Assembly: GCF_000165425.1 (NCBI RefSeq)
Contig: NW_001798978.1
Location: forward strand, 496,001-560,000
DNA: 64,000 nt
Source of the DNA: Paramecium tetraurelia
Lineage: Eukaryota; Ciliophora; Oligohymenophorea; Peniculida; Parameciidae
Reading direction: 5' to 3'
Part shown: positions 57,506-64,000 of the stretch, one piece after another
Layout of the letters: every line of letters begins with the position of its first letter
Numbering within the stretch: the stretch's first letter is position 1
The notes under the pieces: generated by a model
Told to the model about the DNA's origin: nothing
The model's database searches: none
What the model saw: only the letters and a program-made list of their open reading frames with translations
Position numbers and translations under genes: made by a program

Positions 57506-60500
57506 ATGTTTGTATCTCAAAACAAAATTACGGATCAGCTTATTCGAAATTAAGGGGAGGAGCCGGGTAAAACCACAAAATTGTCGTTGCGTTCTATGAA
57601 ATTGACTGTAATCTAAATATTTTACATAGAAAATAGAAAATTTAGATTAATTGGTGCTTTTGTAGGAATTGAACTTAAGTCATAACAATATTACAAAAAT
57701 AGAGAATTTAAGATTGCCAGCACTTAAAGAACTTAATCTTTCAGATAATTTTATAAAATCAATGCATGGATTAGAATTTCTGCCATCTTTGATTAATTTG
57801 AATTTGAATGGCAATTAAATAACTGAGATTAGTTTAACAAATCATAGTTTAGAAACCCTCAAGCTATCTAGAAATTAAATTAAAGATCCATTGTAGTTAT
57901 TAAACCTTAAACCCCTTTTAAATTTGAAAATCCTTTCTCTCAGTGATAATCCTTTTTGTAGAACATTCAGTTACATAGAATATCTATGTTTTCTAACTCC
58001 TACCCTTTAAGTCTTAGACAATAAGGTGATTTCAAATTAGCATGAAATCGCAAGACAATTGTATGGAGAACCAATTCCCAGTGATCATTAACAACTACTC
58101 TAAAACATTAGATTGGTTTAATTAAAAAAGCAAGAGATTGACACTGAAATAGCGTAAATAGAGAATAAAATGTAGAGAGCGACAAATTTACTTCAAACCT
58201 ATTAGAATGATTCTGATAGCGAAGATGAAACAGACAGATAATTAACGAACAAAGCTTTTCTTTCTCTGAAATCTTAGTTAGAAGAACACTACTAGGTTCG
58301 TTAAGAAACAGATGATGCTTTGAAGGAATTAAAATAATAGCTTGAATCATATAAGTCATAACCAAAGGAAAAATTACCAACTGAACAATTGAATCGAATC
58401 AATTCTCTTTTTGTTAGACTACAAGCAGTACTTTAAACAGATTTGACATAATGTTAAAGAACTCTATTTGAAATGGCTTTGCAGGGAAGCATTGAGTAAG
58501 TGTTGTAAAGTATAGTCGATTTATTAGAAACAGTGTTAGAAAGAATACCCTTGTTGCCATAAGAAAGTGTTCTTGAGGAGGTGGCTGCTCAAGTTCATGA
58601 TTAAATCTAGGAATTATACTCGAGAGTTTCTACTAATTCTCTAAATTCAATAGGAATTTAAGATAAACCTATTGAGTCTTCTATTGTTCTATTGAAGAAG
58701 CTATTTAGGAGGGCAGAAAAGAAATACAAGAAGATTGATGAATTCTATGCAATAAAGGCATAATTTATTAAAGATTTTGAAATAGAAACACAATAATTGG
58801 CTGAGAAATGGAAAGATTATGAAAGTAAGAAGGCATAATTGCTCCAAGAAAAAGAAACAATAAGTAAAGAGTTGGAAGAGTAATTTGAATAGATTATGCA
58901 ATAGAAAGAAGAATTGAAAATGCAACATCAATAAGTGGAAGTCTAATTCTCAAAATCTAATGAAGATTTTAAAATATTTAGAGCCAAACAAAATGAAGCT
59001 AGGAAATGTTTAACTGATGAAATTACTAGACTTGGAAGATAATAGGAACAATTGGTAATGATATAAATAATTATTTAGTGTGAAGAAGTTTAAGAACTGT
59101 AGAGTGAAATGGAAAGACTAAAGGATACAAATGCAGAGAAAGAAGAATCAATAAGGTTGTTAAATGAAGAGATTGAAATGTTATAATAGAGAATCTAGGA
59201 TCAATATTAAGTTAGTTTTTAGATTAGAGAAGATCAACAAAGAGCGCTGAATAACATAGAATATTTGAATTCATAGAAAGAATTATTAAGCAAGGATATA
59301 GAGGATTTACAATTTGAACATGCTAAAAAAGAATAGGATACTATGGATTTATAAATCAAATATCAAAATGAACATAACAAAATGAAATTGTTACTCGAAG
59401 AATTGGATACTTGTCATTCAAAATTAAAAAATACAGAATAATTATGTAGAGAAGCAGATAGAGTGTTAAAATAATTAAATGGTGCCGTGGCTGATAAAGA
59501 GTAAGAAATGTAAAAGTATGAAAAAATCATGTAAGAAGCAAATATTGAAAAGGAAAAAATAAAATAGACTAAGAATGAGAATTTATAAATCAAAAAAGAA
59601 TCATAGAAATTAAGGACAGAATTGGACAACTTGGAATATTAAATGTAGGTTGGTCAGGATAATTTATTAAAAGGCAAAAAAAATCTTTAATAAGTTACAC
59701 AACTAACAATAGAGAAGGAATAAGAATTGTTATAAATAGAGAAATAATTAATCAATACTGAAAAATAGATATAGGATTAAATGAAATAAAAAGACATGTT
59801 GGGTAATGATTTCGACATATTGCAAAAGGAAATGAAAAAATTAAATATCGAAAAAGCAAAATTACAATAACAAGTGGATGATGCTACTATTGATTTGTAG
59901 AGCATTAAATAAGAGTTTCAAATTTAATAATCTAATTTACAATCCTTAAATAAATAAATTGAGTAGAAAGTAACAGAATTATCAACTTAAACACATTATC
60001 AGATGCATTAAGGGTAGGAACAAATCATCAATTTTTAATTTCAATTGTAAAAATTACAAGATGGAATAGAAATCAAAGGACAAGAATTTAAATTATTAGT
60101 TGATCAAATTGATTAATTACAATAAAAGCGTGATCATCTAATTTAGAGTGTTTAGCAATTATAATCATCTGTTTTACAAGAGGATTAGAACACTAACTAA
60201 AAACCATATGTAAATATTAAATTAAATTAGATTGTACACGATGAAGAATCCTTGCATTCTTAAAGTTATGATAAATTAAAGCCTGATTGGTTAAAACCTA
60301 CAAAAAACTCTGCGATTAAAAGTCAAACCAACTTTGGCTTGTTAAGCGATTTAAGTAAGAAATTTTAGCCAAGATCTGCAAATTAATCCATACTTAGGAA
60401 ATCTCCTTTGGGCAAAGATTAATCAGTTTAATCTGTTATTTAAAATCTAGAGGAATTAAACTAAAATTTAGATAGAATGTATATGGAAAGTCTTGAAAGA

Positions 60501-60512
60501 TTTGAATCCTGA
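57506..60512 (+). CDS. Leucine-rich-repeat plus long coiled-coil protein (centriolin-like layout)
   Basis: 994 residues, one 22-nt intron (57608-57629) that must be removed to see the first LRR. Five or so SDS22-type repeats at the N-terminus read LQELNLSHNNITKIENL, LKELNLSDNFIKSMHGLEFL, LINLNLNGNQITEI, and so on. They end in an LRR cap (NPFCRTFSYIEYLCFLTP). From about residue 150 onward it is nearly continuous heptad coiled coil, ending in a short Ser/Lys tail. This layout matches centriolin/CEP110 and LRR-containing ciliary scaffolds, so a basal-body or axonemal location is likely (inference). The plus frame is matched by numerous mirror open frames on minus, which are shadows. Confidence 0.87.
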
Positions 60513-61418: not shown

Positions 61419-63401
61419 TCAAACTGTGATAATGATATATTTCCAGAGCTTTATTGCGTCAACCATCCACAGCAATGAAGTATCATACTGCTTTATAGCT
61501 TTTTCAATAAGATGGACAAATTTTTGAAATAAATGTTCACTAATTTTGAGTCTAGAATGAATAGCTTGAATGTCAGATCTTTTAAAATATTTTCTACCTG
61601 ATAACAAGTATTCAAATTTTTTTAAAACAATTTTATCTATATTTGCATCATTGCTATCAAATATGTTCTTGATTTCAACATTTGATTTCAACTCATCGGA
61701 TATTAATGGAACAAATTCACATAATCTCTATTAGCCTACAATATCACAAGGTAATTGTTAATTGGTAATGTATGGAAGTATCAAATCATATTCATCTTCA
61801 AAGTCTTAGAATATTATTCTTTGGGGATTCAATTTCGACAATAAGATCATCATTTTTTCTTTGATACTTTGATAGAGATTTAGACTAATCGAATGTTAAC
61901 AATGAAATAAGTGCAGATCTTCAAGCGTAAAACAGTTATTTTATTTATTAAAAGCATAATGCAAAAAATATTTAGTGTGCTCTACAAATTGATCATATCC
62001 AACTTTATGAATGAAATTCTTATTTATAAGTTAATCTTGCTAACATAATTTGATAAATTCACTAGTAAGATTATCGAATCCTTATTATTTATACACCAAA
62101 TCTTTAATGCTATCTTAGTTGATAACAGCTGCTTTATATGCATCAGTTTACTCTAAAACATACCAAATGACTTCCTTTTGAGTATGTTTGGATAAAGATC
62201 CTGATAAATAGTATTTAAAAATAGAGTATTAAACAGAGGTAATTTCAAAAGCCTTATGAAAATCTCTCATGGAATCCATCACATAATTAGTAGATTCTGC
62301 TGATCCCAAAATAAATCCAAATATTCTGCTGAATTTGATTGCTTATTCCTCTTGCTTGGTTCCTTTAAATAATGGACTTAAAGAGAAATCTTCGAAGATT
62401 TGACTATACATATTTTTAGCTATAATTCTGATGTTATCCTTAACATTTTATACAGACCGAGACTAGTGGATTAAATAAGGAAAGTACCTTAGAAACGATA
62501 GCCCCTCTGTAGGATTCAACAGTTTAAGCACATTTGAAGACTGCCTCCATGTTTATCTTTAATGAAATCAAGTACTTAAGATATAGATATTTGAATCTAT
62601 TGAACATTTGATCAGTTATATTTAGAGTAGAATGTAATTGCTTCAAGGTTTCAAAATGATAGGTAAGTTTATTGCCATTGCTTAGATCTATGAGTGATTT
62701 AACCACTCCTTTCATTTCAATGACTTCTTTGAGAATTGGTCCTATGAGATCATCATCATTTAAAATAGAGCCTAATTCTTTGGTGTAATCATCCAATCCT
62801 TCCATTTTTTCAAATTCACTATGACGAGTCATACCATTTTTTGATCTAAATAAAAGTAAATTAATTACTTTTTATCTTTAAATGATGAAATAATGTCTTT
62901 GATTGATTTCCCAGCTGAAAATGGACATTGTTGTTATTGGACTGAAGATTAAGTTTACTATATTTATGATGCTTGATGATAATGTGATTTTTTTTAAGAA
63001 ACTAGATTGGTAATGATACTTGTGTTATCTTCTCTTTGAGTTTTTACACTGCCAGTAGATGATTTAGGATGATTTTTTATGGTGAATAATCTTTAAAAAT
63101 TTCGACTAGAACCAAGATCAAATTAAGTGGTCTCCTCAATTTATATTGTTTAATTTTTTTTCTTTTTATACTGCTAGGGTGTAAGTGATTTCTGCGCTGT
63201 ATTTACTCTTTCTGTGTCTATGTAATTAGCAGAACCTCCTTTCTTAACTTGCCAAAAATTATTCGACTGAGTAGAATCTAAGGAAGGCAATTTTTAGAAT
63301 AAATATTCTTTTCTGGAGGATTTAATATCTTTAGTTGATTTGCTGAAATTAGGTTGGCTAAAAGTATGTTATTACATTTCACCAGAATCTCTACGAATCA
63401 T
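61419..63401 (-). CDS. Four-domain truncated-globin-like protein with disordered N-terminus
   Basis: 644 residues, two introns (62846-62868 and 62463-62487). About 180 residues of Gln/Ser-rich disordered sequence precede four repeats. Each repeat has the truncated-haemoglobin F-helix pattern (His, then L-x-I, then a phenylalanine/tyrosine helix). The motifs are KQLHSTLNITDQMFNRF, RDFHKAFEITSVQYSIF, LHLFHCQHSISLNLYQS and QAIHSRLKISEHLFQKF. The putative proximal His residues fall at about 249, 366, 484 and 599, a 115-118 residue period. Domain 2 also shows a typical AB/E region (MYSQIFEDFSLSPLFKG). Truncated globins bind haem and gaseous ligands. Whether all four do so is unknown. The first intron joins what look like separate genes. 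Confidence 0.78.
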
Positions 63402-63451: not shown

Positions 63452-64000
63452 TCATCTGAGAAATAAATTTTTACTGGAACACATCTCCTATTTATTTTGA
63501 TTATTTTGTTCTGTGCCCAGCCTCCAAAATATCAATGTCTCATCTCCTGCAGCCGAACACAGCATAGATTGATCAGGAGATATTCCTAAGTGCAAAACTC
63601 TCGATTTATGAGCCTGTAATTCCTATACTAATTTGGCTTACTAAATTTAATCAGCATTCCATATACTAATTTAAAATTTAGAAAAGCCATGAGATGATAT
63701 CAATTCTCTATATCTTGGCAAAAATTGCAGAGCACAAACTTGCGATCCTGTGTCAATGCTCTTAAAACAAGTGCCAGTATCAGCATTCCAAAATTTGATA
63801 GTTTTATCATTTGATCCACCTCCACTGACAAGAGTATTTTGTAACCAAGGACACCAGGCCATTGCTTTGACAGCAGCACAATGACCTTGGCAAGATTAAC
63901 GTAAGGACATTTATCGTCTATCCCAAAGCAATAATTAATTATCATTTGCTCCACTACTCAAAGTACTACCAGACGAATTCCATTTCAATCCACAAACCTC
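63452..64000 (-). CDS. Cdc20/Cdh1-family APC/C activator, C-terminal part
   Basis: WD40 propeller blades of a fizzy-type protein, truncated by the window edge; the N-terminal C-box and start lie beyond 64000. Diagnostic blocks are GLKWNSSGSTLSSGANDNQL, the next blade VKAMAWCPWLQNTLVSGGGS and HKSRVLHLGISPDQSMLCS with AAGDETLIFW. These activators recruit destruction-box substrates to the anaphase-promoting complex. The protein ends LFLR; the family usually ends in Ile-Arg, so the terminal residue fits but the penultimate is Leu. No intron in the visible part. Cdc20 versus Cdh1 cannot be decided here. Confidence 0.92.

Follow-up and report, generated by a model that had tools for sequence, protein, structure and literature searches.

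The earliest descriptions of truncated haemoglobins (trHbs) were of single-domain proteins (PMC7082302), and among eukaryotes the first two to be isolated came from Paramecium caudatum and Tetrahymena (PMC4304232). Several 2/2 haemoglobin (2/2Hb) domains on one polypeptide have already been reported, and THB5 of Chlamydomonas reinhardtii is described with four consecutive 2/2Hb domains per chain (PMC7082302). Here we report on a gene of Paramecium tetraurelia with the same layout. It lies in a stretch of 64,000 nucleotides (nt) of contig NW_001798978.1 (positions 496,001 to 560,000; hereafter the window), and residues 185-644 of its product form four tandem domains (D1 to D4) resembling group-1 trHbs. 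We regard the assignment of this chain to the trHbs as almost certain. The likeness to THB5 is one of layout; THB5 belongs to a green alga, and the gene described here is part of a 19-gene family in five clades. An earlier note on this DNA had called a tetra-domain chain unusual, a claim that the four-domain precedent of THB5 tempers (PMC7082302).

The haemoglobin of P. caudatum (1dlw) and the trHb of Tetrahymena pyriformis (3aq5) share the group-1 fold of D2 as well as its Tyr B10, Gln E7 and His F8 (PMC7082302), but each is a single domain of about 116-121 amino acids (aa). The genome of P. tetraurelia also has a single-domain globin, a close copy of P. caudatum haemoglobin (expectation value, E, 1.5e-61). 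Among other protists, the chimeric globins of Guillardia theta carry six globin domains across two large chains, which differ in having the 3/3 fold, more than 1000 residues and a putative cytochrome b5 N-terminus (PMC4101818). In the literature searched we met no account of ciliate trHbs with four domains; as most subscription papers were beyond the search, this is weak evidence of novelty. A paper by Hade et al. (IUBMB Life, 2017, doi 10.1002/iub.1630) reportedly deals with multidomain truncated haemoglobins with tandem units, which may include ciliate members.

Four tandem domains and their globin identity

The genome reads TAA and TAG as Gln and has introns of about 23-25 nt, and the 644-aa reading of the gene requires three exons separated by short introns of 23 and 25 nt. 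A codon-usage gene finder reproduced this model including both introns; it was purpose-built, with intron scores set by hand and a codon table from 23 long open reading frames (ORFs) of the window, among them exon 3 of the gene itself. The location that had been proposed for the gene (61419-63401, minus strand, 644 aa, with a 23-nt intron at 62868-62846) is correct throughout. The second, 25-nt intron (62487-62463) had gone unnamed, although the count of 644 residues implies it. The gene and its domains are laid out as follows:

61419..63401, minus strand: whole gene, 644 aa; TAA and TAG read as Gln, TGA as stop
62869..63401, minus strand: exon 1, N-terminal low-complexity tail, aa 1-177
62846..62868, minus strand: intron 1, 23 nt, GTA...TAG
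62488..62845, minus strand: exon 2, end of the tail and D1
62463..62487, minus strand: intron 2, 25 nt, GTA...TAG, at the D1/D2 boundary
61419..62462, minus strand: exon 3, D2, D3, D4 and stop
62488..62826, minus strand: D1, aa 185-297, trHb-like, proximal His249
62115..62459, minus strand: D2, aa 299-413, canonical group-1 trHb pocket
61758..62114, minus strand: D3, aa 414-532, trHb fold predicted from profile comparison and structure model
61422..61754, minus strand: D4, aa 534-644, trHb-like, proximal His599
62632..62634, minus strand: His249, F8 of D1
62256..62258, minus strand: His366, F8 of D2
61902..61904, minus strand: His484, F8 of D3
61557..61559, minus strand: His599, F8 of D4

The four histidines are spaced by 117, 118 and 115 residues, in agreement with the regular period of 115-118 residues that had been noticed before. 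The repeat motif itself had been worded as H-x3-L-x-I, which in this literal form has no match in the protein; it was replaced by H-x2-[L/F/H]-x-I, which matches exactly four times (at 249, 366, 484 and 599), so that the four regular copies stand in spite of the wrong wording. Domain profiles built from the paralogues align pairwise with the four histidines in register, and all pairs but one score far higher than controls with reversed or column-shuffled profiles; the exception, D2-D3, exceeds these controls only moderately. D1 and D2 match with E 1.4e-13, and the D3 profile matches D1 with 5.2e-6 and D4 with 5.8e-6. The same comparison also contained a set S of 27 predicted proteins of 110-140 aa, which were picked by length and may include non-globins; its rows were not used. 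Sequence comparison confirms that the tandem four-fold repeat is beyond chance.

The globin identity of the repeats was examined domain by domain. When compared with solved trHbs in the PDB, the D2 profile matches with E 3.5e-10 over profile positions 9-110, and all 19 paralogous copies of D2 match the Pfam family Bac_globin at E<=0.1 (best 4.8e-9), even though the copy of the window itself scores 15.5 bits and stays below the 21-bit cut-off. For the D4 and D1 profiles trHbs are likewise the top PDB matches, with E 5.4e-4 and 0.0037, respectively. Bac_globin is matched by 2 of 12 copies of D4 and by neither of two further copies. Three of the five given D1 copies of clades c and d exceed the Pfam cut-off, and no Bac_globin match was obtained for the 13 D1 copies of clades W, a and b.

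D3 is the domain for which globin identity is most difficult to argue from database matches. None of its 18 copies matches any Pfam globin family, and in the PDB comparison a cyanoglobin appears at rank three with E 0.38, which is chance level, so that D3 lacks a sequence-profile match to known trHbs. The top PDB sequence match of D3 was a ferritin chain (E 0.078), which we set aside because it covers only about 80 positions and because the profile matches of D3 to D1 and D4 are far stronger. The structure predicted for D3 is that of a trHb (predicted local distance difference test score, pLDDT, 82.5), although the input alignment contained trHbs; a fold prediction for D2-D4 without an alignment was unusable (pLDDT 40). 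From the profile comparison and the model, D3 is likely to carry the 2/2 (trHb) globin fold, and four consecutive trHb domains are found in one chain, the D3 part resting on these two lines of evidence.

The profile search and the structure prediction that the earlier note had proposed as checks thus gave a strong match for D2, weak ones for D4 and D1, no Pfam globin match for D3, and for D3 a trHb model instead of a non-globin fold. Taken together, the trHb profile matches of D1, D2 and D4 and the trHb-like model of D3 support the identity that had been suggested. A Pfam scan of the complete D2-D4 exon returned no family, and a genome search with PF01152 found several paralogues, but neither the window locus nor its three nearest relatives; therefore, profile searches with single sequences alone would miss this gene. 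A Pfam match to Rgg_C (4 of 13 D1 copies, best E 0.0015) and matches to REGB_T4, EnY2, DUF4751, HAND and others were below the cut-off or confined to few copies and were taken as chance.

Haem pockets and proposed function

The function that we favour, as a fairly probable one, is that of a tetra-domain group-1 trHb, i.e. a multi-haem protein of O2 and nitric oxide (NO) chemistry with specialised domains. Each domain would hold haem b via its His F8. This residue is kept in all 74 domain copies of the family (19 D1, 19 D2, 18 D3 and 18 D4), counted without D3 of the C128 paralogue and D4 of the C40 paralogue, whose frames are disturbed. Invariant columns number 5 of 111 in D1, 14 of 115 in D2, 6 of 114 in D3 and 3 of 109 in D4. 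Apart from His F8, the following pocket residues are considered:

62406..62408, minus strand: Tyr316, B10 of D2
62367..62369, minus strand: Phe329, CD1 of D2
62343..62345, minus strand: Gln337, E7 of D2
62334..62336, minus strand: Lys340, E10 of D2
61977..61979, minus strand: His459, aligned with E10 of D3, present in 18/18 copies

In D2, Tyr B10, Phe CD1, Gln E7, Lys E10 and His F8 are present in 19/19 copies. Among the residues that stabilise the ligand in group-1 trHbs, Tyr B10 is described as the most conserved, and in the proteins of Paramecium and Tetrahymena Gln E7 likewise bonds the ligand (PMC7082302). With Tyr B10, Gln E7 and Lys E10, D2 would provide a ligand-binding, O2/NO-reactive site, for which NO dioxygenation or O2 binding appears most likely. 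Lys E10 might in addition act as an internal sixth ligand; its role could go either way, because it serves as the sixth ligand in Chlamydomonas THB1 and points away from the haem in THB11 (PMC7082302). The sequence makes it highly probable that D2 binds haem, and it makes haem in all four domains probable to a lesser degree; a role in O2/NO chemistry we judge to be an even matter.

His459 of D3 was paired in two ways. HMMER aligns it with an E-helix His of Synechocystis GlbN, in a weak alignment with a chance-level score (E 0.38) that leaves the F8 His of both proteins unpaired. The GlbN residue in question we take to be His46, the E10 internal ligand. In the MAFFT alignment, which keeps F8 in register, His459 falls opposite the E10 Lys of eight prokaryote trHbs; the distance to His F8 is 25 residues in D3 vs 24 in these eight proteins. 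Synechocystis GlbN is described as hexacoordinate (PMC7082302, PMC2323109), and D3, with His E10 and His F8, would be a hexacoordinate domain of the redox type. D1 and D4 have no invariant distal polar residue among the paralogues. The copies in the window carry Lys at the E10 column of a 12-row alignment (spacings 22 and 21), a position that is variable among paralogues. Without an invariant distal polar set, D1 and D4 might be haem sites of other tuning, or structural.

These differences between the domains also bear on a rather unlikely alternative, namely that haem is bound in D2 only and that D1, D3 and D4 are pseudo-globins serving structure or contacts, which would leave a sensor or enzyme with a single haem, mounted on a helical rod. 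The complete canonical distal set is indeed restricted to D2, and D1 of the window has Gly and Leu at the aligned B10 and CD1 positions and thus lacks both Tyr B10 and Phe CD1, which counts against a haem site in this domain. However, D1, D3 and D4 likewise retain His F8 without exception (55/55 copies: 19+18+18), in D4 it is one of just three invariant columns, and D3 keeps two histidines.

A distant relative of the tetra-globins, C187 (L073, C187:380100-381500; E 4.5e-10), is informative in this respect, as its layout can still be aligned while the ligands at the aligned positions of D1-D3 are missing, a point in favour of the pseudo-globin alternative. In this 1.4 kb stretch, read through a predicted gene model with an incomplete D4, the aligned F8 positions are K in D1, S in D2 and N in D3; D2 has L, F and F at CD1, E7 and E10 but keeps Tyr B10, and D3 has Q at E10. 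In D2 other histidines lie close to the missing F8, and D1 and D3 align only loosely. The haem ligands of D1-D3 seem to have been lost in C187, which possibly represents a haem-free branch. If the alignment holds, the ligands were lost together, as would be expected if they serve haem in the other members. The possible loss of haem that had been raised earlier is therefore not favoured for the window gene, with His F8 in all four domains, but would fit C187.

A different use of four haem sites would be storage. In animals, tandem globins serve as O2 stores or carriers, and by analogy with the polymeric haemoglobins of some invertebrates the protein could store oxygen or carry it cooperatively, raising O2 capacity in hypoxic water. 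The globin gene numbers given for Paramecium, 21-46 per species except for 2 in P. bursaria with its photosynthetic symbionts, would suit such a role (PMC6474222). Yet similar domains would then be expected, whereas the pockets of the four domains are unlike one another and D3 appears to be hexacoordinate; we consider a store quite unlikely.

Within the multi-haem reading, an unlikely variant is a four-haem wire, in which a cytochrome-like D3 and the bare-distal D1 and D4 would pass electrons to an O2-binding D2. The tail with its Cys-Pro motif (see below) would then be a docking site for a reductase or a sensor of haem or redox state. If this were true, the chain would hold its own re-reduction path for NO dioxygenation by D2. 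Re-reduction is said to limit haemoglobins in NO dioxygenation in vivo (PMC2323109), and an intramolecular electron path to D2 would answer this problem of haemoglobin NO dioxygenases.

Paralogue family and N-terminal tail

The genome (69 Mb in 231 contigs, the window being on the contig labelled C25) contains 18 paralogues with the four-domain layout, which together with the window gene form the family of 19. In a tree of 58 domains from 13 of the 19 proteins and six single-domain globins, in which long branches were flagged, a single branch separates the copies of each domain type from the rest, with a weak support of 31 for D1 and values of 95 for D2, 100 for D3 and 91 for D4. Because each domain type groups apart, the clades most likely diverged after the four-domain chain had arisen. 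The old duplication and the specialisation of the domains that the earlier note had suggested are in line with this tree, apart from the weak support for D1, and with the domain-specific pocket residues. Between the window gene and its closest paralogue (C166), dN/dS is 0.071 for D1, 0.025 for D2 and 0.063 for D3, at dS 0.87-1.2; for D4 it was computed only against C219, where dS is saturated. Judged from such data, the family is tightly constrained.

Two of the paralogues have disturbed frames, C128 (L053) in D3 and C40 (L064) in D4, and are either decaying duplicates or affected by assembly errors. At four loci (L054, L055, L056 and L058) two tetra-globin genes are adjacent in the same orientation. 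From these pairs it seems probable that the gene was duplicated in tandem and that the pair was copied later. Outside the 19-member count are C187, a further distant relative at C159:279304-279789 (25% identity, E 7.2e-5), and C51:46603-47104, where pieces 43-46% identical to the C174 protein are accompanied by an internal TGA; the latter is probably the relic of a further family member. On C204 (L018) a gene that reads as kinase-like lies directly upstream of a trHb gene; the gene finder joined the two, and a kinase-globin fusion, predicted by the gene finder only, is possible. A search of the contig collection (genome_contigs) for relatives of D2 with a single pattern gave none and is not informative.

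The domains are preceded by a tail (aa 1-184) of low complexity, rich in Q, S, K and T, which aligns poorly between clades. What had been described as about 180 disordered residues thus corresponds to a 184-residue stretch that is not featureless, since it contains a recurrent motif:

62919..62927, minus strand: CPF motif, aa 159-161; Cys-Pro is recurrent in the tails of the family

Cys-Pro occurs in the tail of 16/19 members and is followed by F, I or V in 15 of these 16. Of the tail cysteines 18/46 stand before Pro, vs 1/128 in the globin part and 1/172 in 22 further long ORFs of the window. When each clade is represented by one hand-picked protein, the tails give 5/11 (Fisher p 1.7e-6). Docking, localisation or haem/redox regulation might be the function of the tail and its CPF motif. 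Haem regulatory motifs are known to contain Cys-Pro, which is described as commoner among mammalian haem-regulated proteins (PMC10377097). Along with its enrichment in the tail, this would suit a haem buffer or haem-responsive regulator, in which haem would bind transiently to the tail Cys-Pro and to several globin sites with open sides, so as to signal haem or redox status. We hold this to be very unlikely: three of the 19 members have no Cys-Pro in the tail at all, the motif was selected after inspection of the tails, the proteins compared share kinship, and Cys-Pro may have other uses. Docking or localisation is as possible for the motif as haem regulation.

Neighbouring genes and significance

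The tetra-globin gene is flanked by the C-terminal part of a CDC20/Fizzy-type WD40 gene (window 63452-64000), which continues past the window end, and by a leucine-rich repeat (LRR) gene at 57651-60512. We draw no functional hint from either neighbour.

For the genus, the existence of this family means that published counts of Paramecium globin genes may partly count four-domain chains. The fused, individually conserved units form a natural set for asking what extra globins are for, be it storage, sensing or electron supply, and C187, seemingly devoid of the haem ligands of D1-D3, would be a built-in control. Since Paramecium permits RNA interference by feeding, the question of what the tetra-globins do is a testable one.
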